64,000 bases of DNA. It comes from Selaginella tamariscina. Its lineage: Eukaryota > Streptophyta > Lycopodiopsida > Selaginellales > Selaginellaceae. Positions 11,590-50,799 of this stretch are shown one piece after another. The notes beneath the pieces are model-generated. The model did no database searches and had not been told where the DNA came from. It worked only from the letters and a program-made list of their open reading frames with translations. A program made the position numbers and the translations under genes. How positions within the stretch are numbered: position 1 is the stretch's first letter; every line of letters starts with the position of its first letter. Location: assembly GCA_003024785.1 (NCBI GenBank), contig PUQB01000531.1:1-64000 (forward strand), read 5' to 3'.

Positions 11590-11800
11590 CATGAGTATAA
11601 AGCAGGAGTCGGCATCAAGCTTCCAGTAGCTCTGGAATTCGGAGCGATGAGGAAGGACGCTGACAACTCGTTTGTGAGTCCAACAGTGGTCAGCCCTATT
11701 AACGTGGGAGATCCTTCCATGGCTTGTTTTAGTGGAAATTGAATACATGGGCAAACAAGACACCATATTCATTTGACAAGCCTCAGAAAGCCTTAAGCAA
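11590..11800 (+). pseudogene. Host coding segment interrupted by the MULE (left part)
   Basis: A plus-strand reading runs open from about 11590 to 11740 and, after a one-base frame change near 11740, to 11800. Here the transposon's target duplication ends it. If the 8902-base element and one copy of the duplication are removed, this frame joins that of 20713-20870 without a stop: the codons read KALS, then N across the join, then KLYGWPMLPF. This indicates that the element entered a real exon. I do not recognise the protein family. The frame change near 11740 may be an unmodelled intron or a later lesion. Confidence 0.45.
11791..11800. repeat. Target site duplication of the MULE, left copy
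   Basis: CCTTAAGCAA directly precedes the element's first bases (GGGTTTGACA). An identical copy directly follows the element at 20703-20712. MULEs normally duplicate about 9 bases, so one of the ten matching bases may be chance. Confidence 0.85.
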
Positions 11801-11917
11801 GGGTTTGACATTTCCTCGAGCGCAGTTTGCCGAGCGTACGGATTTCCGTCATACCGGAATATTCCATTCTGTACAGAATATTCGTTTTCATATAAAGAAT
11901 ATTCTGGTGCGGCGGCG
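11801..11917 (+). repeat. MULE left terminal inverted repeat
   Basis: The left terminal repeat begins GGGTTTGACATTTCC and continues TCGAGCGCAG. It shares TCGAGCGCAG, GATTTCCG, several GAATATTC octamers and a closing GTGCGGCGGC with the reverse complement of 20509-20702. Perfect GAATATTC palindromes start at 11857, 11876 and 11897, spaced 19 and 21 bases apart. Confidence 0.8.
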
Positions 11918-12295
11918 GGCAATCATGGCGGCACGGTAATGTGTCAAAGTTTCACAAATTGGGGGTTAATCTGACATATATATTTATATATTTATATTTA
12001 TATTTATGTTTTATTTTTTAATTATTTATATTTATAACTATAATTATATTTTTATATAAATACGCATCAAACTAAATAAAAATTACAATAAAACATAACT
12101 CAATCATGAAGACTCGTTTCCACCAGCCAGTGCCTCGTCGTTAATGAATGCATTGTTACGGTGTCGTGACGTTTCTCCAAAATCTGTCTGTCGTAAACTT
12201 CGAACTCTTCAACCATTTTCTTTGCCATCTGATTAGCGTAACTAGAAAAACTGAAAACATATTAAAGTTTAAAACCAAAGAATATAAAACAAATC
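11918..12295. other. AT-rich subterminal region of the MULE
   Basis: Between the left inverted repeat and the methyltransferase stop codon lies AT-rich sequence with TATTTATA repeats at about 11978-12060. It would contain the 3' untranslated region and polyadenylation signals of the methyltransferase gene. I see no further gene. Confidence 0.5.
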
Positions 12296-15200
12296 TCACT
12301 CATCATCTGATGACTCGTATGATCTCTCTTCTGCTGACTCATCTGATGACTCGTCGTTGTGCTCCACGGACTTCTCCGTAACAACATCCTTGTCGTTTCG
12401 AGAAGGCGGATCCTGGTCTCCATCGTTGTCGCTAGCCAAAGGCAAATCCTGTGCTTCTGTTTCCATGGCCCTCTTCCACTCATCAAAAGGAGTAATCATG
12501 GAAACAACTTGATCATCCCCACCACCTTCAGCTGCTGTAACACTTGGAATGACCTTCCTGAAGACATCTCTGGCTGCTAAAACCAGATCCTTGTTGATGT
12601 CGATTCCATAACCATGTCTCCCTGTGTGAAAAGCTGCAAGAATACTAGCACCGGTTCCCACTGTTAGATCCACAACAGTTCCACCAGGCTTTGTGAGCTT
12701 CTCCACTAGCATCGCAAACAACTTGGGAGATTTCGGGCCAATTGAAATCCTGAAAGTTACAATATTAGAACATGAGAAATAACAAACAACATTATACCAT
12801 GGGAGCTGGAAATCTTCTGGCTCATCAAAAAGAAGAGTGTAGCGAGTGTCCAAGATCTCCTTGTTCTTGGCAACCTTAGAGTAGGGGGAACCAAAAATAC
12901 ACATGGCAATGATGCTTTCCTGAAAAAATAAACATTAAAAAATGACATTCTCAAAAAGAAGAATTACCTTTCTAGAGAAACGGTATCCCCATGACTTTGT
13001 CGTGTGCACATAACTCATCTGCAGAAACTTTAGCTTGCAAGTTTCTGCAGTGTTCTTCAAAGCTAGAACATCATCCGGTAGCACAAACACTACCACATGG
13101 CCAGCTCTGTCTAATATCCCGAAAGCAAGGTTCACCAAGTTCTTCAGCAAAGCATCCGAGAACTTCGTGTATTGATCCACCATCCCTGCCTCAGCAACGC
13201 ATCCGGTAGGCGGGTCGATGACAACGAGATCAACAGCTCCCTGGATGCATTTTGGTGGAGGCTTCGCACCAAACACATGAATAGTCCAACTTGACTTGTG
13301 ACTCACGATCCAATCCTCAAGCTCCTTCAATCCTGACGGAAAAGGCCTTCCGGCTTTGAAGTACTGGACTGCAAGGTTCTCTGAATCTGCATGAATGATT
13401 TCCCAGCTTCCATTTCCCTTCTCAGGCATCACCATCCTCAACATATCATCTTCTTCCAATCCAGCCGAGATGAAGGATGGGGCTGAAGAAGAAGCTTGTC
13501 CCTTGCTGACCTTGCTCGCCGATCTAGCATACCTGATATCCATCTTCACATGGAGCTTCCTTGCAGCATTGTCGTTCTTCCATAATAGCTCTCGCCGATC
13601 ATCCTTGTGTATCTTATAGCTGGCCATCTCCCATTCGGGACAGTCACCAGGAAGGAAATCCAGCCAGAAAGGACAGTGTTCCACTTCGTAATCACTGATA
13701 TCACGTAACAACCGGCTCCACATGCTAGAATCCTTGGTAACATCCATCCACTCTTTGAAATCTTCAGGGAGTGCATCGTTCTTCCATTTTAAAAACCTGT
13801 AAAAATAGAAAAAATCTGTAAAGAAACAAAAAAAAAACTTGCCTGAATGCCATTCTTTTTGCAGATTTTTCCAGCTCAAATAGTCGAGGAGGTGGAATTG
13901 TCGCACCGAACTCCTTGTTCTCGAGCATGTTCTGGTACATATCCAACTTAATTTCATTGTGCATCTTCATATACCATGTCATGAACTCCTCTACATGCTC
14001 GACCAAAAGCTCTTTAGCTGCCTCCGCGACCTGGCACGATAAAACGAATAAAAATGAAAAATATAAATATTAAATTACCTGGAACCAGTAAGTAAAGATG
14101 TGCAAAAACTTGATGAAGTCCTTGTCAGGCCAGCCGGTGACACCTTCCTTCTTGTCTTTCTCCGTCATGTTCACCAGCTTCTCAAGAACGCCACGTTCTT
14201 GAATGTGCACAAGCTTTCCAAGGATATCAACCTTGACGTTGGAAGGAAGCTGGGACTTCGCGAGCATTTGAAGCTTCTCCAGAGTTATTTGCTTCGTTGA
14301 TGGTTTGATAGTGATATCTGTGATCGCCTTGAACCAATCTTCACCGACCGCCGGATCAGCAATGGTGAGGAATTTGTTCATCCGAACTGTGAATGTCTTG
14401 TAAACGCTGGAGAGGATCTGAGATTCTGTCTGGTTTGGTTTTCTGTTCGCAAGTTTTGTAGCGATTTGTCGCTTCAGTTGATTCTGCAAAAGAAACCGAA
14501 AATCAAAAAAAGTCAAAAGAAGAAAAATTACCTCCCAAAAAATCTTCACCAATGTCGTCTTTGGATACTCGTACCAAACGTCTTCTTTTCTGTTCGATCT
14601 CCACACTTCCACAGCTTTTCTATCTTCCTCCGGCATCCCGCGAAGAACATGATCGGTAGAAAGATCTGCAGACTTCACACAACAATTCCGTAAGAACTGC
14701 AAGGTGTGAATGATTGTTGTAGGAACCACACGAGCAGTTGCTCTGCAAAACAAAACAACATTTATTTAGTATTTAAATAATGAAACAAACAAGTCACTTA
14801 CTCATTCAACCGATTGCAAGCAGCGATTAGTCTCTTCTCCTCTTGCACTGTGGATGCTATGAGTGTTGCACGTACACGCAAAGTCCATTTCAAACCTGGC
14901 TCTTCAGCAAGCAAAGTGTTCAAAGCAACCCGACGATGATTCCCATCCCACACCAGAAACTTTGCATCTTTCAGAAATCGATACCATGCAGAAAATGCTG
15001 GCTTATGCAAATCCGCTTCAAACTCTCTATCGACCTGTGCTTCTGACTCATTCCAACTTCGGCGTTCGTCTGCACTCAGCTGTGGTCCGAAAGATAAGGT
15101 GAACACTGACGTCTCCTGGTAAAATCCTTCAGCTCTAATCCATCCAACAAGGTCTTTCACGCCGTCCTTAGTGACATTCCTCAAACGTTGGTGTGGGAGC

Positions 15201-15718
15201 AACCTGTGAACCGGGATACGCAGAGGCTCACCAAGCTCAACTGGAACGTAGTGGTCTCGTCCTTGTAGCGATGTGTCAATATCTGTGTCATACCGAATAA
15301 CAAGATCCCGAAGAAGCTTGGATGGAGCCTCAAGTGTCAGCCGCTCCGGAATTGCATATGATTCGGCAACATCCTCAGGAGCATCCAGTTTCCTCTTCTT
15401 ATTGAACATTTTACTACCAAGATCAATATCCGGTACTTCCTCTGCATTACCGTGTTCTGCAGAGCTTCCTGCAATCTCCCTATTTCTAGGCATCCATTCA
15501 CTCACCACAGTATGTTCATCAATGACTTGCGAACTATCCACAGGTTCATTGTTCGTCGGCATCATCTCTTTGTGTTGCAGTTGTTGCTTGGCGCCTCGGC
15601 CTCCTTTCTTGCCACGAGGTTTTGGAGCCATATCTGCAAGAGCTTCTTGGACGATATGTTCTTGAAGTGTCAAAGTCTTGTATTTATCTCGTAGTCTCTT
15701 ACTCTGCCTTTGTCTCAT
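12296..15718 (-). CDS. ParB-like / N6-N4 DNA methyltransferase fusion
   Basis: Seven exons (14802-15718, 14532-14742, 14079-14483, 13843-14030, 12968-13796, 12798-12919, 12296-12749) join in phase into an uninterrupted 1041-residue protein. The start ATG lies just after a 3' splice site. Introns are 46-59 bases; the fourth uses a GC donor (CAG/GCAAGT). A basic, possibly nuclear-targeting stretch (PKPRGKKGGRGAK) comes first. A ParB-like domain (about residues 165-290) follows, with IPVHRLLPHQ and WDGNHRR, equivalent to the GERR box. After a long helical linker comes a beta-class methyltransferase: motif IV as DPPT (about residue 767), then SPKLFAMLVEKL and motif I DLTVGTGAS (about 920). The tail is rich in D, E and S. 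Such fusions are known from bacteria and phages, where they methylate adenine-N6 or cytosine-N4. The usual aromatic residue of DPP(Y/F/W) is T here, so activity is uncertain. Confidence 0.85.
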
Positions 15719-15997
15719 TCTGCAATTACAACAACTGATAAGTGTGTGTGTGAGTTGTTTTAATTTATGGACACACATTTACTATATATGTATACCTATC
15801 AATATATATAGACACACACGCACACACACACATATTTATACGTGTAATGTTGTGTGTGTGTGCAATGTTGTTTGTGTTTTGTGATGTGTCTGTGTGAGAG
15901 AATATGGGTATTTCATATCTCTTCACATGTATATACAGACGAAAAGCATCATCTTATATATACAAGTCTTAAATTCATATACTTATACATACATAAG

Positions 15998-16045
<48 letters not shown>

Positions 16046-17124
16046 TCTTTTTAAGTATGTATTTAAATATATATATTTATATACACACACACATGTATAC
16101 AAGTCTAATGTTGTATAATCATACGTGTGTAAAATGTTATTTATGTGTGTGCGCAAAACACACACACACACGCACACACACACGGATTTCCTGCCCGAAT
16201 TGGGCAGGAATCTGCCGCCAGGATGGTGCGGCGCCGCACCATCCAGGCGGCAGATTCTGCCCGAATTGGCAGGAAATGTGTGTGTGTGTGTGTGTGTGTG
16301 TTGCCGAAATCGGCAATAACTCATGCGTCGGAGGTGTGTGTGTGTGTGCACACGCGCGTGCGTTTGTGAATACAAAGAAATCCTACTGAATTTGCACATA
16401 CATTCACAGAAATTACTATACACATATATAAGATTTTACCTGTAGCCATGTCGCCGTGACGCTCACACTAGCCTCTTGTCGCCGCAAAAAAAAGAACAAA
16501 AGTGCCCTCTCTCAACAATGGAGAATGGAGAAGAAGAATGGGTAGTCCTGCACCTTTACCCTAAAATCTAACACTTAACCCTTTGACCCTTAACTATAAA
16601 ACTGTGTTTAATTAAACCATACAACAGTATATATAATACTTACGATAAATAACATACTATATAAAAGGATACAAATACAAACACATATTTAAGTAAAAAT
16701 TTGTATGTTAAAAAACATATTATTATATAATTAAATAAATATTCGTGTAAAAATATGTATTTATAATTGACAATTGGTAGCGGAGCAAGTATTAATCAAC
16801 ATCTACATTTGATAAAATACTGGATCAAATAACTATATAATTATAATAAATAAATTAACAGAATATAAACAAGTCATAAATAAATATGTCAGATGAATGT
16901 AGATTAGACACACATTTATTTAAAAGACAATAAAGATTGCTCTATCTCTACGTGAAGTGCTATACTATATTAGCATCTAAGATCTATACGTTTCCTTGAA
17001 TTAAATATTCGCCCACGTTGAGTCATGATTGTGAATTTTTGAAATGGTAATATCCGATATTTACCAAAAGATGATTAAGTAATGCTGTTGTTTTTCTGTC
17101 ACGTTTGTGGTAACTGCTTGCAAA
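15719..17124. promoter_or_regulatory. Divergent intergenic/promoter region of the MULE
   Basis: This stretch separates the two divergent element genes. It holds CA/TG microsatellites (about 15800-15880, 16083-16094, 16158-16184, 16277-16300), a TA run (about 16008-16042) and a GC-rich foldback (16185-16276). A minus-strand splice donor (ATGGCTACAG followed by GTAAAA, at about 16436-16450) could pair with the acceptor at 15720-15723 to form a 5' leader intron of the methyltransferase gene. In that reading the repeats would lie within the intron. No TATA box stands out. Confidence 0.5.
16185..16276. repeat. GC-rich near-perfect foldback palindrome
   Basis: Two arms of about 45 bases meet at GCGGCGCCGC. 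Each arm contains its own smaller palindrome built on CTGCCCGAATT and its complement. The arms are extended on the outside by complementary CA and TG runs, so a transcript or single strand could form a hairpin of roughly 140 bases. A second small hairpin (TTGCCGAAATCGGCAA) follows at 16301-16316. It may be a foldback mini-transposon or a regulatory structure of the MULE. Confidence 0.75.
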
Positions 17125-20100
17125 ATGGCCAGGATTGTTTACGGCAATTTGGATCACGATGTTCCTGTGATAGATGGTGTTGGAATCATTCTTACTAATC
17201 AGATTAGAACGTTCTTTGGCATTTTTGATTGGCAAAGTGTTCGTCTTTTTAAACTTCTTCATGGGCAATCTGCTTTACAGATCGAAATAAACGAGGACCA
17301 AGATGCTGGAGGGAAGGATAATCCAGGATATGTTTTGTTACCGGATGAAGGACCATTGTTTAAGCTTGTCGTTGCTTCTGACTCTGAATACTCAACGTTG
17401 AAGAACCTTTTCACTTCTAATACCTGCAAAAAGGGAAGAATTCTTATCGAGGGTTCCACGATCATTCATACAAATGAATTGCCTATTGCGTATGATGGGG
17501 ATGTCATTTTTGAGCTCCCTCCTTCCGAATACAAATACAAAGGAATGAATCGGAAAGAGGATGGACATACCTGGACAGCAGGAACGACCAGCAACTGGAA
17601 TTTTCAAGCGAGGGTGTCCAGGAGCAAATGTGTTGGGAGCCTTTGCTGTATCAACCCGGACTGCCCTGCTTCTAAGGCAGGATTTCCGAACTGCACTAAA
17701 TGGAAAGGATGTATTGTTTCCCCACCTTCAATCGACAAACTGGCAAAAGGATTGACATGTTTTTTCTAAAAGAAAATCCATTGTGCCTTGAAGTTTGTCA
17801 TGCTGTGGCGTTTTGCGTTTTCCCAGACGACATAACCAAGACTAGATTGTTTATCCACCAGGGAAAACATTCACATCCAGTGGGTGATGGTGTTTCTGCA
17901 TCGAACAAAGAAGAAATGCATATGGCGGTCCAGAATGCAACAGAAAGAACTCCCAGAGCTAGTCCAAGAGTCATCGAAATGGCAGCATGTAAAGATGCTA
18001 TCTTTGGTTTTCTATTAGATAATTCTGAGCCTGGAAGTTGGGATAAGCTCATGGATCATTTGCAACCATTATCAAACAATCGAAGGTACAATTAGAGTTT
18101 TACTTTGTGCTGAGCATTCTTTGATAATACCTTTGATGCAGAGTTCGTCAATGGGTAGCGTCCGCAAAGAGAACTGCTGCTGAAATGCCAGAGAATATTG
18201 ATGGATTATTGGAGCTGAAACGAAGGTTGTCTATCCCATTCATCCACGTGATTCACTATCCTGGGATGAATTTCCGTGGTTCAGACGACCAGGCATTAGT
18301 TTTTAAGATGACGGTTTCAGGGCCAGGTTCTGGAATCGATTATGTAAGGATGTGCCAACCTCCTCTTGGCCCTTTGCAGAAGAGTTGGGTTCTACTTGAT
18401 CACACACACCGTGTTGTTGATAAGTGGATCACTCTGGCATTGCATGTTTACGACCCAAAGTAAGATGTTATCTTTTTGTTGTTTGCTTAACTCTTTGATT
18501 ATTTTATAGTGTGCGCCGATTATCCACCATTGCTTATGGTGACATGAAGAGACAAACGGCTGGAGCTGTGGAGAAGTTTTTTCGTGCTATGTTGGATGTC
18601 TGTTCCGAGAAGGGAATCTACAATGTGCAGTTCGCTGGGTTTATGTCCGATGAAGCAGGAGCGATCTGGCAAGCAATTAGGAATGTGTTCTTTAATGGCC
18701 AAGAAATTCCTGGACGTGAACGGAGCTGTATCTTTCACTATGAACAAGCCATACAACGTGTGACAAGGAAGTGGGTCCCTCTTGAACATCAACAACAACA
18801 TCTTCAACTTTTGAGATCATGGCCAACAGCCACATCAACAACTGATCGTGAAGAAATTGAAAATAATCTTTTCCGCTTTTGGAATGAAAATGTGAAGGAT
18901 GTTGGAGTTATGCAGACGTGGTTTTCATGGTGGGAAAGACAGAAGAATCATATTTCAAATGTTGTTCTTGAAAGCATGCCGGAGAATGCTGCAAGGGTTG
19001 TGCCCATGACAAACCAGTCGGAGTCTGTTCACGGAAGATGGAGGAGGGCTAGAGATTCAAAATACATTTCATTGTACCAAGCTACAATCCACGACCTGAC
19101 TGAATCAGTGCGACAATGTGCTCTTGTGAAGGCTTTTAGAGATGGAAGGTATAGTGGTTCCGGGCCGACTTCAGAGGAGCTCTCAGCAAGGTTCGAGAGA
19201 AGAATGTCAAATGCTAACTCAACAACACCTACAGCAAAGGTTATCATCGACTTAGTTGAAGATGTTGCTCCATCAAGCATGCAGGATACTGCTTTTGTGG
19301 CTGCCACGAATGTTGAACATCGCACTGTGCAAAGAAATATGGGGTCAGAGGCTGAACGATCCCACCGACCGGACATCTTCTATAGTGAACAGGTTATTCC
19401 AACACAGTGTAGACGGAAGCGACGATTGGATTTTCAACTTGCAGAAGAACATGAAGAATATGTTCTGGTTGAAGAACAAGATGTTACACCTGGACAATGG
19501 GCGATTAGAAGATGTGGTGAAAGAAGTTCTGTGAAATGTCTGGCAGGCTTTCCCTCTTCAGGAGGTCAGTGGAGTGCTTGTGACAAAAAGATCAGTCCTA
19601 GTGGTAATCGAGTGGCTGCTCCTTGTTTTTTTGGAAGGATCAGATACAATGACAAAGAAACTGGTGAAGAATGCTTTCGCTCACAAATGATGTATTTTTG
19701 TCCAACAAACATGCTTTGCAACAGACATCCAAGACCAACTATTGTTTCTCCGCCAGCTTCTACCTCGGTTTGGAAAGTTCAAGTGGGCACGAAGCTGATA
19801 GCAATGGAGATCAATGATCTGGCAAGATCAGGTTTTATGCTAGCTGGGCTTCCTTCAGCTCATGCAGGAGTGCCAGGTTTTTCAACACCTCATGTTCCTT
19901 CAGTTCCTGTTGGAGTCACTGGATTTTCAACACCCCCTGCACAATTTCGTGGACCTCCTGTTCCTGCAAGTGGTCGTGCAACAAGAACACCTTTAGGGAT
20001 GTCTAAGAAACAACAGGTAAGTTTTGAAGCATGTTTGACGTTGGGAGCATATGTCGCAGAAGTTGACGTGGTTGATCCTCCAACATGCATTCGCTTCAGA

Positions 20101-20342
20101 GTATGTGACAAGACCATACATCTGCTTGGGTTGTCATTTGTAGCGCACCATCTTGTTCATGCTCGGAGTTCTGCAATGGTCGTCAGTGGGTGCCTTGCAA
20201 ACATATGTATTTTGTTTACAAGCGTGTACTGGGAGCTGATCCTCGAGTTGTCAAGCATTTGCAACGTCGTACACTTGCACCCCGTGAACTAAGTTCTTTA
20301 TTGATGCTACCAAGGAACCTCCATCCTCCACCATCTATTTAG
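17125..20342 (+). CDS. MULE-like transposase with zinc finger and SWIM domain
   Basis: Exons are 17125-18085, 18142-18459, 18510-20016, 20060-20100 and 20144-20342, with introns of 43-56 bases and about 1008 residues in all. Residues 1-290 hold a Cys/His DNA-binding region (CCINPDC, CLEVCHAVAFC, then GKHSHP), like the FLYWCH/WRKY-GCM1 fingers of MULE transposases. The catalytic core shows D in LLDHTHR (about 18395), D in GFMSDEAGA (about 18645), the CIFH (CxxH) motif (about 18725) and E in TNQSESVHG (about 19013). The C terminus has a SWIM finger (CSCSEF...VPCKHMYFV). One problem exists: the reading must shift by -1 between 17700 and 17769. A T6 run (TTTTTTC directly before TAA) at 17760-17766 could be a slippery site or an indel; no well-phased short intron fits. 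Start chosen at the first ATG of the open frame. Confidence 0.82.
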
Positions 20343-20508
20343 TGTGTTTGGTTTGTTTTCAAACAGCTTCGGTTTTATATTTGTTATTTCAAACTTATAA
20401 TTTTCAATATAAATTTTAATGGTAATTTTATGTTTAGCATATTTTTAAGTAATTTAACATATATTTTCTTTAAATACAACAAAAATATACTACCATATTT
20501 TGTATGCG

Positions 20509-20702
20509 GCCGCCGCACTAGAATATTCTAGAATATTTTGAAAATTTTGGAAGGTCCAATTGTGTGTACACTTGGCAGTACGAAAAATTTCCGTACAGAA
20601 TATTCGAGAATAGACGGAAATCGTACGGAACAACGGAATATTCAAGAATATTCGGAAATCTAGGTCAAGCTCGTTGACCTGCGCTCGAATTTCGCCGTGC
20701 CC
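20509..20702 (-). repeat. MULE right terminal inverted repeat
   Basis: The reverse complement of this segment begins GGGCACGGCGAAAT followed by TCGAGCGCAG and ends with GTGCGGCGGC, matching the left end. Perfect GAATATTC octamers start at 20521, 20598, 20636 and 20646. It is about 77 bases longer than the left repeat because of extra sequence around 20530-20595. Confidence 0.8.
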
Positions 20703-20712
20703 CCTTAAGCAA
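20703..20712. repeat. Target site duplication of the MULE, right copy
   Basis: CCTTAAGCAA is identical to 11791-11800 and follows the element's terminal CCC. Confidence 0.85.
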
Positions 20713-32559: not shown

Positions 32560-33850
32560 TAAAGACGAGTTCCACGAGTCTTGGGACCTGGTTTAGCAGG
32601 ATAATGCCGATGGAAGGCAGCAACCTTGGAAGAAGCATGGAGTAAGTTGGATGCAGGTTCCCAAGTGCGATCAGTAGGCAATACCTTTCCAATCCACCAA
32701 GTATTGGAGTTGGCGATGAAGACGAGAATCAAGGATGGCTGCAACTTCGTACTCAGGTTCAGTGTCAATGACCACAGGAGGGGGAGGAGAAGAAACACGA
32801 CCGGGAAGAGAAGAAGGATGATACGGCTCCAACAAGGAGGTGTGAAACACAGGATGAAGTTTCACCGTGGATGGTAACTCGAGTCGGAAAGCTACAGGAT
32901 TTACCTCCGCCACGATCCTGTAAGGGCCCAATCGTTGAAAATCCAACTTAGAAGAAGGCCTGTTGGTGCGAATGTGTCGACGAAGAAGCCACACGAGATC
33001 ACCAATCTTGTATGCAGGTGCCGGCTGACGGTGAGCATCAGCATGATGCTTGTATCGTTTGTGCCTGCTGAAGATGAACCTGGAGATCATCCTGTACCTG
33101 CGAAGATGCTGAGACGATCCTGTACTGCAGGAGCGGAAGAAGGAGAAGCGGGAGGAGCAAAGTCAAAACGTGGATGGTGGCCTGTAAGAGCAAAGAAAGG
33201 TGTCTGTCCTGTAGATGCGTGAACGGAGTTGTTGTAGGCAAACTCCGCCATTGGAAGAAGGTCCAACCAGTTGTCCTGCTGGTAACTGATGAAGCAACGA
33301 AGATACTGTTCCAAGGTCTGAATTGTGCGTTCGGACTGCCCATCGGTTTGCGGGTGATATCCTGAAGAAAGATCCGCTTTAACCTGTAGACTCCGAAGAA
33401 GCTCTCGCCAAAACTTGGACATGAATTGTGGACCTCGATCGGAAACAATGCTCTCAGGAAGACCATGATGTCGGAACACTCACGGATCACCAACTCGGCA
33501 GTTGTCTGACCTGTAGCTGTCTTGTTGCAGGGTAGGAAATGAGCCTGCTTGGTGAAACGGTCAACCACCACAAGAACTGCATCGAATCCACGAGAAGGAG
33601 GAAGATCTGTGAGGAAATCCATAGAAATGGATCTCCAAGGAGCAGAAGGAACAGGAAGAGGACGAAGAAGACCAGAGGGTGCATGATGAGGCATCTTCGA
33701 CCTGTACAAGTGTCACAACTCCGTACAAACCTCTCCACAAAACCTCGCAACCCAGGCCACCAATAGTTGCGAGTCACCAACTCCACTGTCTTGGCCACAC
33801 CAAAATGTCCTGTAGCCGGGGTATCATGACAATCCTGTACCACACGAGTC
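32560..33850 (-). pseudogene. A1 integrase and chromodomain
   Basis: Integrase inserts the DNA copy; the chromodomain steers insertion towards modified histone H3. Seen: [21 protein letters not shown] (end of the HHCC finger, about 33720-33785), [20 protein letters not shown] and [12 protein letters not shown] (catalytic D region, about 33540-33640), [12 protein letters not shown] (second D, about 33405-33445), [11 protein letters not shown] (E, about 33330-33360), KLDFQRLGPYRI and a chromodomain with EPEYEVAAILDSRL and QYLVDWKG (about 32660-32790). Frame changes occur near 33480 and 32690. Confidence 0.85.
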
Positions 33851-35480
33851 CTGGAAATACCAACAGGAACGTACAGGAGACCTTCCCGGTACAGGAGTCC
33901 ATCCTGTATGGTGAACAGGTTTGTAGTCTAAGGGAACTGGAGGAAGAGGAACTTGCAACGTCAGGATGAATGTGTGAGAACACATTCTTTGCCAAGTCGT
34001 CTGTAGCCAACTGCGAACGGACGTCCTGTAGGAGTGTTGAATTTGCTGGAGCCTGATGAACCTGCAGTGCCGCAAGCCGGAATCGATCAGGACCCAACAA
34101 CACTTGCCTTTGACAGTCAAATGCAGGATCGCCCGGGCTTGGTGCAAGGTAAGAGCGCCTAGACAATGCGTCCGCCTTGCCATTCCGAAAACCGGGCCTG
34201 TAGACGATGACGAAGTCAAAACGTGATAGGAACTCTGCCCACCTAGCCTGTCGCCGACTGAGAACTCGAGCCGTTTGAAAGTACTCCAGGTTCTTGTGAT
34301 CCGTAAGAACTTGTACAGGATGCAGCACCTTCCAGGAAATGCCGCCACTCCTCAACGAATCCACAATGGCCTTGAGTTCCTTGTCATGAATCTCGTAATT
34401 GATCTCCGCCGACAGGAACTTACGAGAGTGAAAAGCTACAGGATGAAGCAACTTGTCTCTCCAACTTGTGATAGGACGGATCCTACTGCAAAATCCGAGG
34501 CATCTGCTTCAATGAAGAAAGGATGAGAAGGGTCAGGATGTGCTAAAATCGGAGCTGTCGTGAAGGCGTCCTTGAGTGTTGTGAACGCGTGTTCCGCCTT
34601 GTCGGACCAAGAGAAAAGCCCTGTGCGCTTGGTGAGTTTGTGAGTGGAAGTACACGCTTGGAGAAGTCCTGTATGAACCGCCTGTAGAAGTTTGCAAAGC
34701 CAAGGAAACATTGTACATCTCGTACCGACTTGGGCCTCTCCCACTCCACGATGGTCTTCACCTTGTGCATGTCCATGGAAACGCCAGCAGGAGAGACGAT
34801 GTAGCCCAAGAACTCCACCGAATCCCTATCGAAAAAAACTTCTCCAACTTCGCGTACAGGCCATGCTCGCGAAGCCGCTCTAGAACTAGTCGTACATGCT
34901 TGTCATGTGCCGCCTGGTCCTTGGAGAAAATCAAATGTCGTCGAGGTAGATCACCACAAACTGGTCCAAGAAGTCACGAAAGATGTCGTTCACCATGTGT
35001 TGGAACACGGCTGGGGCATTGGTAAGGCCGAAAGGCATTACCGTGTACTCAAAATGTCCATACCTTGTACGAAAGGCAGTCTTCCACTCATCGCGGACGA
35101 ATCCGTACAAGGTTGTAGGCCCCTCGTAAGTCGATCTTCGTGAACACCTTTGCTCCTCGCAGCCGATCGAGAAGTTCCGGGATCAATGGCAACGGGTACC
35201 GATTCCGAATGGTGACTTGATTCAAACCCCTGTAGTCCACAACCAAACGTAAACTCCCATCCTTCTTCTTGACAAAGAAGATAGGTCCTGCAGGGGACTT
35301 TGAGTGACGAATGAAGCCGGATGCCAAGTTGTCCTCGATGTACTGACGAAGAACCTCCAACTCTGTGGGTGACAATGCATAAATCGGTCCGAATGGTGGA
35401 GTCTTTCCTTCCGCAAGATCAATAGGACAGTCGTAGGACCTGTGAACAGGAAGAACTGCAGCCTTGTGCTTTGTCAAAAA
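33850..35480 (-). pseudogene. A1 reverse transcriptase and RNase H
   Basis: This region copies the element RNA into DNA and removes the RNA strand. Reverse transcriptase motifs from 35480 downwards: [70 protein letters not shown], and the catalytic VVIYLDD near 34940-34960. RNase H follows with [15 protein letters not shown] (about 34490-34535) and HDKELKAIV (about 34370-34395). Frames are broken at several points (for example near 34830 and 34450). Confidence 0.85.
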
Positions 35481-36059
35481 CGTCCTTAAAGTGTGATACT
35501 TGGATGGTAGGGAAGAAGGAGGAGAAGGAGAAGGAGTAGGAGAAGGAGATTGAAAAAGGAGAGTCGGATACAGGAAAGGTAGAAGAGGACGTAGGAGTTA
35601 CTTGAAAGGCAAAAGGTGGAAAGGAGCAGGATCAGTGGCGAGTTCATGCATGGTAGTGGTAAGAACTCGGAGAGGAGAAGGAGGGAGCTGTGACTGAAAA
35701 AGAGGAAGGATCTTGGGGGTGGAACAGAAGCAGTAACAGAAAGAGGCAGGATTGGAAAAAACCTGTGTGGGTGTTGACGAGTGTACAGGATTGGAAGAAT
35801 CCTGTACAGGAGTCCGTGGTTGCAGGAGTGGGAAAGCCTGCGAATGTGCTGACGAATCAACAGGAGGTGGATCCTGTTGAGGAGGAACCTTCGACACTGA
35901 TACAGGATTGGAAGAACCCTGTACAGGAACCGCAAACTTACAGGAGTGGAGAGAGCCTGCGGATGTGCTGAGGAACTGACATGAGGTGAATCCTGTCGAG
36001 GAGGAGTCTTCAACACTGGTACAGGAACAGGCACGGTCAATCCTGTAGCTTGTACTGCC

Positions 36060-36510
36060 TCAGATACTAAGGATGTATCCTGCACAAGGAAGGTACAGGA
36101 TTGATCCTAGCTGTCGGAGAGGAAAACGTGAGCGTCCTAGACCTCCAGTCGATCTGCGGATTTGCAACAACGAACCATGGCATGCCCAAAATGATGGGAG
36201 TCGACCGAGTCTTGATCAAGTTGAAGGAAATTGAACAGTTGAATGTGCCATAACTGCAGGAGAGAGGTTCGGTAGCATGGGTAACTGCGCCAGAAGCAAT
36301 CAGACGCCCATCGGCCACCTCTACAGGAACTGCACGCTTCAACTTCACCACCGAAATGCCATGTTGAGTTGCAAAAGTGTCATCCATGAAGCATGCATTT
36401 GCACCAGTGTCTAACAAGGCAAACTCCATGAGCTCTCGATTATTGATGAATGTGTACAGGAAACTTAAGTGATGGAATGGTATGAGCAGCACCAATGGAG
36501 CCTGCACCTA
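36060..36510 (-). pseudogene. A1 protease domain
   Basis: This is a retropepsin-like aspartic protease with the catalytic ALLDTGANACFMDD (about 36380-36430), GRLIASGAVTHA and the second-half ILGMPWFVVANPQIDW. It would cut the Gag-Pol precursor. Between it and the reverse transcriptase (35480-36060) lies a Pro/Ser-rich linker. Confidence 0.85.
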
Positions 36511-37499
36511 CGTCCAACTTCGCGGCTCCTAGACGAAGTGGACATTGGAGTTTTCCGACTGAACTTCAGCTTCAACTTCACGCGTCTTGAAGTTCCTGGC
36601 TTTAATAGGACAATCTGCCACCTTGTGTCCTGCTCCACCACAATACAAGCACAGGTTCTCACTGCGACGACGTTGCTTCTCAGCAGCGGAAAGAGAGCCA
36701 CGCTTGGATTTCTCAACCTCCATAGGAACTACTCCAGAAGGTGGTGCAGGAACATGTACCACAGCTGCAGGATTGGTTTGCAGGAACTGCTGACGGGATC
36801 TTTCCTGACGACGCTCGAACAAACGGTTGTCGCAACGAACAGCTTGTTGCATGATCTCCGCTAATGTTTGGGCATCCGGTAACGTAAGGAGAAGGTCCTT
36901 CACGTCATCCCTCAACCCAAAACGGAAGTGTTCGATCAATGCAGTCTCGTCCCATGGAATGTTCGTGCAAAGTTGCTGAAATTCGGATGCATAGACGGAA
37001 GCTGGTCGGGATCCTTGAGTGAGCTTCCGTAACTTCGTGCATGCAGGGTACTTATCAGGATCTCCAAAACAGGCTTCAAAGGCAGCCACGAAACCTTCAA
37101 AGTCTTCCATCAATGGGTCGTCACGCTCCAGCAAGGGGCAACCCAAGCCCGTGGAGATCCACTTAGTAAGGATGCCAAAAGACCCACCTTTTGAGCATCA
37201 GTCGAGTAGCGCGTGGTTGCATGCGGATCAAGAGCCGGATCTGATTCAGGAAACCTTGGAAATCGGCACGATTGCCACTGAACTTCTCTGGCATGCTAAC
37301 CTTCGGCTCCGAAGAAAAGTTTGATGAAGAGGGAACCACCGATGCCTGAGAGAGCCTGCGCAGCAGCCTTGGAGGATGCATCAGCAGCTGCATGTGCCGC
37401 ATTGGTGGAACCTTGCAGGTCGGTGACCACTTGGCGCAAAGTGGCCAGCTCATGAAGCAACATTTGGTGCTCGCGTTGAAAGTGCTCAAAATCAGCCAT
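36510..37499 (-). pseudogene. A1 gag
   Basis: The structural protein starts MADFEHFQREHQMLLHEL at 37499. It continues with SMPEKFSGNRADFQGFLNQ, FVAAFEACFGDP and a CCHC zinc knuckle, CLYCGGAGHKVADC (about 36620-36660), which would bind the element RNA. The frame changes near 37330 and 37150, so the protein is broken. Confidence 0.85.
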
Positions 37500-45413: not shown

Positions 45414-46011
45414 TGTCAAGCCACAATCCAAGAACCAGGAAGACAGCAGGATTTCAAGAACAAGAAGGCTTTGACTTAGGAGCAAGACAGAGAATAGGAT
45501 AGGAACTAGGAACTCAGGAACAAGACCAGGCGCAAGACAAGATCCAAGAGCCAGACAGGAATAGGATAGGATCCGGGAGCAAGACAGGAAGGTGCAGGAT
45601 AGAATCCAAGAACAAAACAGGAACAGGACAGGATCCAGGAGTAAGACAGGAGCAAGACAAAGAGAGAACAAGAAGCAAGGAGCAAAACAAGAACAAGACA
45701 AGACAAGATTGATCGTAGTAAGACTGGTGTTGATAGTAACTGATTGTACAACAATTAGGTCGGAGCTTTTATGCTCACAACTCCAAGAGCTAATCTAGGC
45801 ATGAGTGCTAAAAGTGGTTGCATGCATGCAAAGTGACTGCATGCATGCAGAGGCTAAGATGAGTCCACATGTCCTTTATCCTCTAGGCATATCCTGTGGC
45901 ATATCCTATAGGAATATCCTACACCGTATCCTGTATCCAGAATCCCTGTAGGAAAATCCTGCAACCCATATCCTGTATCCGGAATCCTGTATCCTGTATC
46001 GGGTCGTGACA
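45414..46011 (-). repeat. A2 3' LTR
   Basis: TGTCAAGCCAC...GGGTCGTGACA, with the purine-rich AGGACAGGATCC-type minisatellite (about 45480-45710) and a shorter ATATCCTGTAGG repeat block than A1. Confidence 0.8.
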
Positions 46012-49000
46012 GCACCTCCTCCTTAAAGACGAGTTCCACGAGTTTGGGACCTGGTTTAGCAGGATAATGCCGATGGAAGGCAGCAACTTTGGAAGAATCA
46101 TGGAGTAAGTTGGATGCAGGTTCCCAAGTGCGATCAGTAGGCAAATAACCTTTCCAATCCACCAAGTATTGGAGTTGGCGGCGATGAAGACGAGAATCAA
46201 GGATGGCTGCAACTTCGTACTCAGGTTCAGTGTCAATGACCACAGGAGGGGAGGAGAAGAAGCATGACCGGGAAGAGAAGAAGGATGATACGGCTCCAAC
46301 AAGGAAGTGTGAAACACAGGATGAAGTTTCATTGTAGATGGTAACTCGAGTTGGAAAGTTATAGGATTGACCTCCGCCACAATCCTGTAAGGGCCCAATC
46401 GTTGAAAATTCAACTTAGAAGAAGGCCTGTTGGTGCGAATATGTCGACGAAGAAGCCACACGACATCACCAATCTTGTATGCAGGTGTCGGATGACAGTG
46501 AGCAAAGAAAGGTGTCTGTCCTGTAGATGCGTGAAGGGAGTTGTTATAGGCAAATTCCGCCATTGGAAGAAGGTCCAACCAGTTGTCCTGCTGGTAACTA
46601 ATGAAGCAACGAAGATACTGTTTCCAAGGTCTGAATTGTGCATTCGGACTGCCCATCAGTTTGCAGATGATATCCTGAAGAAAGATCCGCTTTAACCTGT
46701 AGACTCCGAAGAAGCTCTCGCCAAAACTTGGACATGAATTGTGGACCTCGATCGAAAACAATGCTCTCAGGAAGACCATGATGTCGGAACACTTCACGGA
46801 TCACCAACTCAGCAGTTGTCTGACCTGTACCTGTCTGTTGCAAGGTAGGAAATGAGCCTGCTTAGTGAAACGGTCAACCACCACAAGAACTGCATCGAAT
46901 CCACAAGAAGGAGGAAGATCTATGAGTAAATCCATAAAAATGGATCTCCAAGGAGCAGAAGGAACAGGAAGAGGATGAAGAAGACCAGAGGGTGCATGAT
47001 GAGCATCTTCGACCTGTTACAAGTGTCACAGCTCCGTACAAACCTTTCCACAAAACCTCGCAACCCAGGCCATCAATAGTTGCGAGTCACCAATTCCACT
47101 ATCTTGGCCACACCAAAATGTCCTATAGCCGGGGTATCATGACAATCCTGTACCACACGAGTCCTGGAAATACCAACAGGAACGTACAGGAGACCTTCCG
47201 GTACAGGAGTCCATCCTGTATGGCGAACAATTTGTAGTCTGAACGGGAACTGGAGGAAGAGGAACTTGCAATGTCAGGATGAATGTGTGAGAACACATTC
47301 TTTGCCAAGTCGTCTGTAGCCAACTGCGAACGGATGTCCTGTAGGAGTGTTGAATTTGATGAAGCCTAATGAACCTGTAGTGCCGCAAGCCGGAAATGAT
47401 CAGGATCCAACAACACTTGTCTTTGACAGTCATATGCAGGATCGCCTGGGATCGGTGCAAGGTAAGAGCGCCTAGACAATGCGTCCGCCGTGCCATTCCA
47501 AAAACCAGGCCTGTAGATGATGACGAAATCAAAACATGATAGGAACTCCGCCCGCCTAGCCTGTCGCCGACTGAGAACTCGAGCCGTTTAGAAATACTCC
47601 AGGTTCTTGTGATTCGTAAGAACTTGTACAGGATGCGCAGCACCTTCCAGGAAATGTCGCCACTCGAACAAATTCACAATGGCCTTAAGTTCCTTGTCAT
47701 GAATCTCGTAATTGATCTCCGCCGAAAGGAACTTAGAGAGTGAAAAGCTACAGGATGAAGCAACTTGTCTTCTCCAACTTGTGATAGGACAGATCCTACT
47801 GCAAAATCCGAGGCATCTGCTTCAACGAAAAAAGGACAAGAAGGGTCAGGATGTACTAAAATGGAGCTGTCGTGAAGGCATCCTTGAGTGTGGTGAATGC
47901 ATGTTCCGCCTTGTCGGACCAAGAGAAAACCCCTGTGCGCTTGGTGAGTTCCGTGAGTGGAAGTACACGCTTGGAGAAATCCTGTATGAACCGCCTGTAG
48001 AAGTTTGCAAAGCCAAGGAAACATTGTACATCTCATACAGACTTGGGCCTCTCCCACTCCACGATGGTCATCACCTTGTGCATGTCCATGGAAACGCCAA
48101 TAGGAGAGACGATGTAGCCAAGAACTCCACAGAATCCCTGTCGAAGAAACACTTCTCCAACTTCGCATACAGGCCATGCTCGCGAAGCCGCTGTAGAACT
48201 AATCGTACGTGCTTGTCATGTGCCGCCTGGTCCTTGGAGAAAATCAAAATCGTCGAAGTAGATCACCACAAACTAGTCCAAAAAGTCACGAAAGATGTTG
48301 TTCACCATGTGTTGGAACACGGTTGGGGCATTGGTAAGGCCGAAAGGCATCACCGTGTACTCGAAGTGTCCATACCTTGTACGAAAGGCAGTCTTCCACT
48401 CATCGCCTGGACAAATCCGTACAAGGTTGTAGGCCCCTCGTAAGTCGATCTTCATGAACACCTTTGCTCCTCGCAGCCAATGAGAAGTTCCGGGATTAAA
48501 GCAACGGGTACCGATTCCGAATGGTGACTTCATTCAAACCCCTGTAGTCCACAACCAAACGTAAACTCCCATCCTTCTTCTTGATAAAGAAGATAGGCGC
48601 TTCTGCAGGGGACTTTAAGTGACGAATGAAGCCGGATGCCAAGTTGTCCTCGATGTACTGACGAAGAACCTCCAACTCTGTGGTGACAAAGCATAAATCG
48701 GTCCGAACGGTGGAGTCTTTCCTTCTGCAAGATCAATCAGACAGTCGTAGGACCTGTGAACAGGAAGAACTACAGCCTTGTGCTTATCAAAAAACGTCCT
48801 TAAAGGCGTGATACTTGGATGGTAGGGAAGGAGGAAAGGAGAAGGAGATTGAAAAACAGAAGAATCGGATACAAGAAAGGTAAAAGAGGACGTAGGAGTT
48901 ACTTGAAAGGCAAAAAGGTGGAAAGGAGCAGGATTAGTGGCGAGTTCATGTATAGTAGTGCTAAGAACTCGGAGAGGAGAAGGAGGGAGCTGTGACTAAA

Positions 49001-50799
49001 AAAAGAGAAGGATCTTGGGGGTGGAACAGAAGCAGAGTAACAGAAAGAGGCATGATTGGAAAGAACCTGTGTGGATGTTGACGAGTGTACAGGATTGGAA
49101 GAATCCTGTACAGGAGTCCATGGTTGTGCAGGAGTGGGGAAAGCCTGCGAATGTGCTGACGAATCAACAGGAGATGGATCCTGTTGAGGAGGAACCTTTG
49201 ACACTGATACATGATTGGAAGAACCCTATACATGAAAACGCAAACTTACAGGAGTAAAGAGAGCCTGCGGATGTGCTGAGGAACTGACATGAAGTGAATC
49301 CTGTGAGGAGGAGTCTTCAACACTGGTACAGGAACAAGCACGGTCAATCCTGTAGCTTGTACTGCCTTAGATACTAAGGATGTATCCTGCACACAGGAAG
49401 GTACAGGATTGATCCTAACTGTCGGAGAGGAAAACGTGAGCGTCCTAACCTCCAGTCGATCTGCAGATTTGCAACAACGAACCATGGCATGCCCAAAATG
49501 ATGGGAGTCGACCGAGTCTGGATCAAATTGAAGGAAATTGAATAGTTGAATGTGCCATGACTGCAGGAGAGAGGTTCGGTAGCATGGGTAACTGCGCCAG
49601 AAGAAATCAAACGCCCATCAGCCACCTCTACAGGAACTGCACGCTTCAACTTCACCACTAAAATGCCATGTTGAGTTGTAAAAGTGTCATCCATGAAGCA
49701 TGCATTTGCACCAGTGTCTAACAGGGCAAACTTCTTGAGCTCTCGATTATTAAAATGAATGTGTACAGGAAACTTGAGTGATAAATGGTATGAACAGCAC
49801 CAATGGAGCTTGCACCTACGTCTAACTTTGCAGCTCCTAGACGAAGTGGACATTGAAGTTTTCCGACTGAACTCCAACTTCAACTTCACGCGTCTTGAAC
49901 TTTCTGGCATTAATAGGACATCGGAAAGAGAGCCACGCTTGGATTTCTCAACCTCCATAGGAACTACTCTAGGAGGTGGGCAGGAACATGTACCACAACT
50001 ACAAGGTTTTGCAGGAACTGCTGACGGAATCTTTCTTGACGACGCTTGAACAAACGGTTATCGCAATGAACAGCTTGTTGCATGATCTCCGCTAATGTTT
50101 GGGCATCCGGTAACGTAAGGAGAAGGTCCTTCACGTCATCCCTCAACCCAAAACGGAAGTGTTCGATTAATGCAGTCTCGTCCCATAGAATGTTCGTGCA
50201 AAGCTGCTGAAATTCGGATGCATAGACGGAAGCTGGTCGGGATCCTTAAGCAAGCTTCCGTAACTTCGTGCACGCGGAATGGTACTTATCAGGATCTCCA
50301 AAGCAGGCTTCAAAGGCAGCCACGAAACCTTCAAAGTCTTCCATTAATGGGTCGTCACGCTCCAGCAAGGGGCAACCCAAGCCCATGGAGATCCACTTAG
50401 TAAGGATGCCAAAGACCCACCTTTTGAGCATCAGTTGAGTAGCGGCGTAGTTGCATGCGGATCAAGAGCTGGATCTGATTTAGGAAACCTTGGAAATTAG
50501 CATGATTGTCACTGAACTTTTCTGGCATGCTGATCTTTGGCTCCGAAGAAAAGTTCGATGAAGAGGGAACCACTGATGCCTGAGAGAGAGCCTGCGTAGC
50601 AGCCTTGGAGGATGCATCAGCAGCTGCATGCGCTGCATTGGTGGAACCTTGCAAATCATGACCACTTGGCGCAAAGTGGCCAGCTCATGCAGCAACATTT
50701 GGTGCTCGCGTTGAAAGGAAAAGGAGGAAAACGAAGGAAAAGAATCATGAAAAAAAGTAGCTGGAAAACGGAGAGCTATAAAAGCAGTTATTATCAAAC

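Follow-up and report, generated by a model that had tools for sequence, protein, structure and literature searches.

A MULE-like transposon family of Selaginella tamariscina with a ParB-like/N6-N4-methyltransferase-like gene and palindromes clustered near its ends

Related systems

Transposons with genes for ParB-methyltransferase proteins have been described in algae. The giant transposon Sola1-1_Ec32 of Ectocarpus encodes, on the strand opposite to its transposase, a 1104-aa protein with a ParB-like part and an N4C/N6A methyltransferase part, and its authors propose that this accessory protein binds and modifies its own transposon, as described in PMC12477816. Similar ParB-methyltransferase proteins are reported in transposons of green and red algae (Iyer 2011; Petroll 2025, cited in PMC12477816), and in phages ParB-CTPase folds are frequently fused to N6_N4 methyltransferases (PMC12704722). 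Here we describe an element resembling the Mutator-like elements (MULEs) in the land plant Selaginella tamariscina, which carries a transposase gene and, divergently, a ParB-like/N6-N4-methyltransferase-like gene. It lies in a stretch of 64,000 nucleotides, hereafter the window (contig PUQB01000531.1, positions 1 to 64,000 of the forward strand, assembly GCA_003024785.1). Going by its published description, Sola1-1_Ec32 resembles the window element in that a ParB-methyltransferase protein stands opposite the transposase, yet it is a 21.5-kb element of the Sola-1 superfamily in a brown alga, whereas the window element is MULE-like, 8.9 kb long and resident in a plant. The green and red algal proteins, as they are cited, are of the same ParB-methyltransferase kind as the window protein, in algal hosts. 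Likewise, the phage fusions, as far as they are described, join the same two kinds of domain, and the window protein matches PHROG 67 ('DNA methyltransferase') at 3.2e-9; unlike them it has DPPT at motif IV, introns, and several hundred residues between its two parts.

Accessory proteins that act on their own family of elements are described in plants as well. VANC21 of Arabidopsis binds a nine-base motif that recurs within the VANDAL elements of its own family, and counters silencing (PMC5735166), and VANDAL elements are described as MuDR-type (PMC12730594). On these descriptions, the role proposed below would be analogous to that of VANC, an accessory protein of a MuDR-type element that binds a motif of its own family and opposes silencing. 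To our knowledge, VANC carries no methyltransferase domain. Cargo that modifies chromatin or DNA is likewise described in other DNA transposons, with other enzymes and in other hosts: TET/JBP genes in fungal transposons and SET in others, including a MuDR element with SET in an oomycete (PMC12730594).

An initial annotation of the locus had held ParB-methyltransferase fusions to be typical of bacteria and phages and not known in plant MULEs. The first half is too narrow, given the transposons published from brown, green and red algae (as presented in PMC12477816); as to the second, our searches of an open-access library brought up no paper on a protein of this kind from a MULE or from any element of a land plant. 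As far as our searches show, it is new that the host is a land plant, that the element is MULE-like, that its ends carry a palindrome array and that motif IV is changed. The locus thereby adds a plant host and a further type of element to a small, recently noticed class of accessory proteins known from algal transposons.

The element, its two genes and its copies

The element is one mobile unit. The same 10-bp target site duplication, CCTTAAGCAA, stands on both sides of it (Table 1), and its two ends align in inverted orientation with a local score of 69, against a maximum of 40 among 300 base shuffles of one end. These terminal inverted repeats are imperfect, with a TCGAGCGCAG core followed by a gapped match across about 175 bp.

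The methyltransferase-like gene has six proposed introns of 46-59 nt, predicted from reading frames and splice sites, five with GT-AG and one with GC-AG borders, and once spliced the frame of the window copy is uninterrupted. Their small size fits Selaginella, whose introns are short. Pfam N6_N4_Mtase (PF01555) matches the spliced protein, begun for this query at an upstream ATG (1061 aa), at 2.3e-8 and 34.7 bits, with a cut-off of 26.7. The ParB/DndB-like region, whose limits and WDGNHRRVAL motif were set by eye, gives 0.0057 with Pfam DndB, below the cut-off, and 0.037 with NCBIfam DndB; against the PDB, the ParB-like exon gave a single meaningless match (E 0.72). In the protein database, residues 150-990 of the product found no match at a threshold of 0.001, nor did a 303-aa methyltransferase piece at a threshold of 0.01. 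The same piece matched no record of a phage collection by tblastn, searches of viral contigs gave no relatives, and a prokaryotic genome contig gave one weak match, 52% over 31 residues.

In the window copy the transposase is cut short. A base near 20111 that is present in 14 of 16 aligned copies is missing, and because of this the SWIM-like C-terminal part is lost. For the window copy we also weighed a further intron just ahead of the SWIM-like part, a reading that was dropped because other copies show an extra base there. Five copies, L009, L010, L013, L014 and L022, keep the frame open as far as the alignment reaches (at least 1006 aa), and in these a SWIM-like CxCx..CxH motif, CSCSEFCNGRQWVPCKH, is recognised by eye; there is no Pfam SWIM match. 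The MULE domain PF10551 matches a cut-out piece of the protein over profile positions 2-96 of 99, with E 0.019 and 15.8 bits against a cut-off of 27.6, and for the full transposase protein no PF10551 match was listed. A protein database search with transposase residues 150-650 returned no match at a threshold of 0.001; since it gave no homologue, the transposase may come from a divergent or poorly sampled branch. Target duplications of 8-11 bp and terminal inverted repeats are features of MULE / MuDR elements, and together with the sub-threshold PF10551 match and the SWIM-like motif seen by eye they suggest an element of this kind. With PF10551 below its cut-off, the assignment to the superfamily is tentative, and we write MULE-like rather than MULE.

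What the initial annotation observed is confirmed: a single 8.9-kb unit with inverted repeats and a 10-base duplication, two divergent genes, and an intact ParB-like/N6-N4 methyltransferase fusion. Its label 'MULE-type' is plausible and agrees with the duplications and the inverted ends, less so with the transposase protein, and the transposase that it placed inside the unit is present on the plus strand but truncated in the window copy.

All genome searches were made in the window's own assembly of 300,702,823 bases in 1391 contigs. This genome encodes light-harvesting proteins (26 matches), and one that was read resembles, by eye, an Lhcb protein of the green lineage. A search with 451 bases of the methyltransferase gene gave 135 candidates, and the 40 that were scored are all 100% identical to the query. 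Twenty of the 39 other listed places were fetched as stretches of 9901 bases. Both ends and both genes are present in 13 of these; L012 and L019 have both genes and a damaged left end, and L011, L017, L024, L026 and L027 are interrupted, deleted or incomplete in the stretch read. Ten of the fetched copies, each of them one of the 13 complete ones, are flanked by target duplications of 8-11 bases that differ from copy to copy; in the remaining three complete ones (L018, L023 and L025) the search, which tolerated shifts of up to 2 bases, found none. The family is young, multi-copy and recently spread.

The left end was also searched alone, so that copies were not selected by their methyltransferase gene. 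The best 40 of 137 candidates, which are the matches nearest the window copy, the 97 others being unscored, are all at least 98% identical. By contig and position, compared by eye, 26 of them are copies known from the methyltransferase piece, and the remaining 14, read directly, all contain both methyltransferase-gene sequence (14/14) and transposase sequence (14/14). With its sequence present in 40/40 of these best left-end matches, the methyltransferase gene belongs to the element's regular make-up, a linkage stronger than the initial annotation could have known. The earlier suggestion of a transposon equipped with a ParB/methyltransferase-like gene of its own is upheld by copies at many places inside transposon ends; a check for copies with the same ends and without the gene found none among the best 40 of the 137.

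Some copies share flanks: L017 with L027 and L001 with L025 on the left, L016 with L018 on the right. Not all copies are then independent insertions, and segmental duplication, unmerged haplotypes or recombination between copies may account for such pairs. L024 is an internally deleted derivative of 2986 bases in which the right end is present.

Motif IV, reading frames and selection

Motif IV of these methyltransferases is defined by the pattern [DNS]PP[YFW]. In the window copy it reads DPPT, outside the pattern. Among 28 aligned copies 27 have the same DPPT codons, and one has a gap there. Two PDB alignments, both weak (whole-sequence E 0.021 and 0.052), place the T opposite the Y of MboIIA (VIDPPY) and of chain 9c3u_A.

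A PF01555 search of the genome gave 739 candidates, of which 150 were scored, all of them above the cut-off. None of these 150 lies at a listed place of the window family, as compared by eye, and most have a 106-aa frame. The four that were read fall into two families distinct from that of the window, A (L073) and B (L074-L076), so that there are at least two more; both came from the PF01555 search only. The two are homologous to the window protein, with scores of 164 and 136 against maxima of 44 and 43 in 500 shuffles, and by eye they have introns at two of the same positions as the window gene. Motif I is intact in both (WDIGSGTGSS) and motif IV is DLPN, so the aromatic residue of motif IV is absent in all three families seen. 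Since the 150 scored of the 739 candidates are all above the PF01555 cut-off, families of the A and B types together probably outnumber that of the window. Low-identity matches were also considered as divergent families; the nine that were read are frameshifted window-family copies, 93-98% identical over long aligned pieces.

Of 19 aligned copies, five (window, L010, L013, L023 and L028) have a methyltransferase frame free of interruptions, and the transposase frame is open in 5 of 16; in L010 and L013 both genes are open. An S. tamariscina assembly is listed as PacBio with Falcon in PMC8558194; if the assembly searched here is that one, some of the single-base insertions and deletions may be sequencing errors. 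For a test of selection on the methyltransferase gene, 28 copies were aligned (the window, 18 of the first set and 9 further ones). Variants common to at least two copies comprise 21 silent and 24 changing ones, and single-copy variants 66 silent and 170 changing. Taking 0.292 as the neutral share of silent changes, a value derived from these very variants, we find silent changes in excess among the shared variants (one-sided p = 0.0097) and not among the single-copy ones (p = 0.68), and the two classes differ by Fisher test (p = 0.021). The excess fits a gene that was under constraint while the family spread and decayed after insertion. The transposase, with 16 variants in 16 copies, has too few for this test.

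Table 1. Features of the element in the window, and examples of the two related families elsewhere in the genome
Feature	Position	Strand	Remarks
Element (one mobile unit)	11801-20702		about 8.9 kb
Target site duplication CCTTAAGCAA, left copy	11791..11800	no strand	10 bp
Target site duplication CCTTAAGCAA, right copy	20703..20712	no strand	10 bp
Left terminal inverted repeat region	11801..11960	+	local alignment of the two ends, genome matches
Right terminal inverted repeat region	20500..20702	-	local alignment of the two ends
GAATATTC, left end	11857, 11876, 11897		three sites
GAATATTC, right end	20521, 20598, 20636, 20646		four sites
ParB-like/N6-N4-methyltransferase-like gene	12296..15718	-	7 exons, 1041 aa
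Its exons 1-4	15718-14802, 14742-14532, 14483-14079, 14030-13843	-	
Its exons 5-7	13796-12968, 12919-12798, 12749-12296	-	
ParB/DndB-like region	14802..15250	-	WDGNHRRVAL motif; limits and motif by eye
Motif IV region	13190..13240	-	reads VVIDPPTG
S-adenosylmethionine (SAM)-binding motif I	12560..12749	-	VVDLTVGTGAS, part of exon; Pfam N6_N4_Mtase profile positions 165-218
MULE-like transposase gene	17125..20292 (about)	+	proposed introns 17711-17793, 18086-18141, 18460-18509
Examples of related families A and B (L073-L076)	C726:698392, C885:163325, C565:331665, C1293:521691		

The terminal palindromes and the proposed role

Among the 8-mers in the 200 bases at either end of the element, the most frequent is a palindrome, GAATATTC. 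The window element has seven terminal sites, three left and four right, and no internal one. Leaving L024 aside, 11 of 14 copies have three on the left and five on the right, the exceptions being L015, L022 and the window, and inside the element none of these 14 copies has any. Elsewhere in the same genome, 72,098 bases of other DNA contain three. When the ends were simulated 2000 times with a first-order model, the count of any one 8-mer never rose above 5, a comparison that has to be read with the fact that GAATATTC was picked after inspection of the sequence. The array is a candidate binding or modification site.

We propose that the ParB/methyltransferase-like product is a standing accessory protein of a MULE-like, recently active transposon family. 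The protein would recognise the GAATATTC arrays near both ends, could possibly modify adenines there, and by this recognition might influence transposition or shield the element from silencing. Whether it acts in this way on the element's own DNA is a question on which our judgement is evenly divided. If it does, a plant transposon would possess its own DNA-marking or mark-reading system. The role of N6-methyladenine (6mA) and N4-methylcytosine (4mC) in plants is debated, and with a candidate writer, a candidate site in GAATATTC and young copies in which both genes are open, this family offers a case testable on native DNA. A wider proposition, that several vascular-plant transposon families have long kept a ParB-methyltransferase protein which deposits or reads 6mA or 4mC at a terminal GAATATTC array, strikes us as distinctly unlikely; it would mean a self-marking system other than 5-methylcytosine, running parallel to the cytosine methylation of the host.

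Several points weigh against the proposed role. No ParB family in Pfam or PHROG matches the protein, DndB being found below cut-off only, and a single-sequence fold of the ParB-like exon gave a mean predicted local distance difference test score of 32.2 with no ParB fold modelled. Because motif IV is DPPT or DLPN, without the aromatic residue, the predicted catalysis is unproven and methylation may not occur; the marking of the ends with 6mA or 4mC that the initial annotation envisaged is therefore conjectural, and its interpretation is supported in part. The methyltransferase frame is broken in 14 of the 19 aligned copies, and the silent-change signal is modest, among variants that share ancestry. 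Position is the sole tie of the protein to the palindromes, and the transposase could be their binder.

The most probable alternative concerns the array. Sub-terminal motif arrays are frequently binding sites of the transposase, and GAATATTC might be one of these, with the methyltransferase-like protein acting elsewhere, for instance on other proteins or on DNA of the host. We consider this quite possible, somewhat short of an even chance; the example of VANC21, an anti-silencing protein described as binding a short repeated motif of its own element (PMC5735166), speaks, by analogy, for the accessory protein as reader of such an array.

A second alternative keeps the protein on DNA and takes away its chemistry. 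The methyltransferase domain, with motif I kept and the aromatic residue lost, would then be non-catalytic, and the protein a SAM- or nucleotide-binding DNA-binding regulator, be it a repressor, an anti-silencer or a co-factor of transposition. Such a loss is consistent with motif IV, where 27 of 28 window-family copies share an unaltered DPPT and both related families read DLPN, while all three families retain motif I. Set against it, the Asp and one Pro are still present in motif IV, and we are aware of no finding that this particular substitution destroys activity. On balance, we rate this reading as less likely than not, though a real possibility.

MULEs capture genes, and the methyltransferase gene might be a passenger taken up in the manner of the Pack-MULEs, without a role for the element. 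Pack-MULEs are among the elements cited in PMC12477816. Broken methyltransferase frames in 14 of 19 copies would be expected of a passenger; yet broken frames are just as common in the transposase (11 of 16), and some of the insertions and deletions are possibly long-read errors. The presence of the gene in 40/40 of the best left-end matches, the silent excess among shared variants, and the existence of other families whose homologous genes share intron positions also argue against it, and we regard a mere passenger as improbable. That a host gene, or a contaminating bacterial one, lies by chance between unrelated repeats can be set aside almost entirely: the domains look bacterial, but the gene has six introns of spliceosomal type and recurs with the same ends at many places in the genome.

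Apart from these questions, the element has an inverted repeat between its divergent genes (16162-16301; arms 16198-16233 and 16232-16267, 86%), framed by CA/TG microsatellites, around which the copies vary in length. Outside the element, the window contains pieces of Ty3/gypsy-type retrotransposons on the minus strand, at 33774-37146 and 45919-49958, with matches to RNase H, gag, protease and SH3_Tf2-1.

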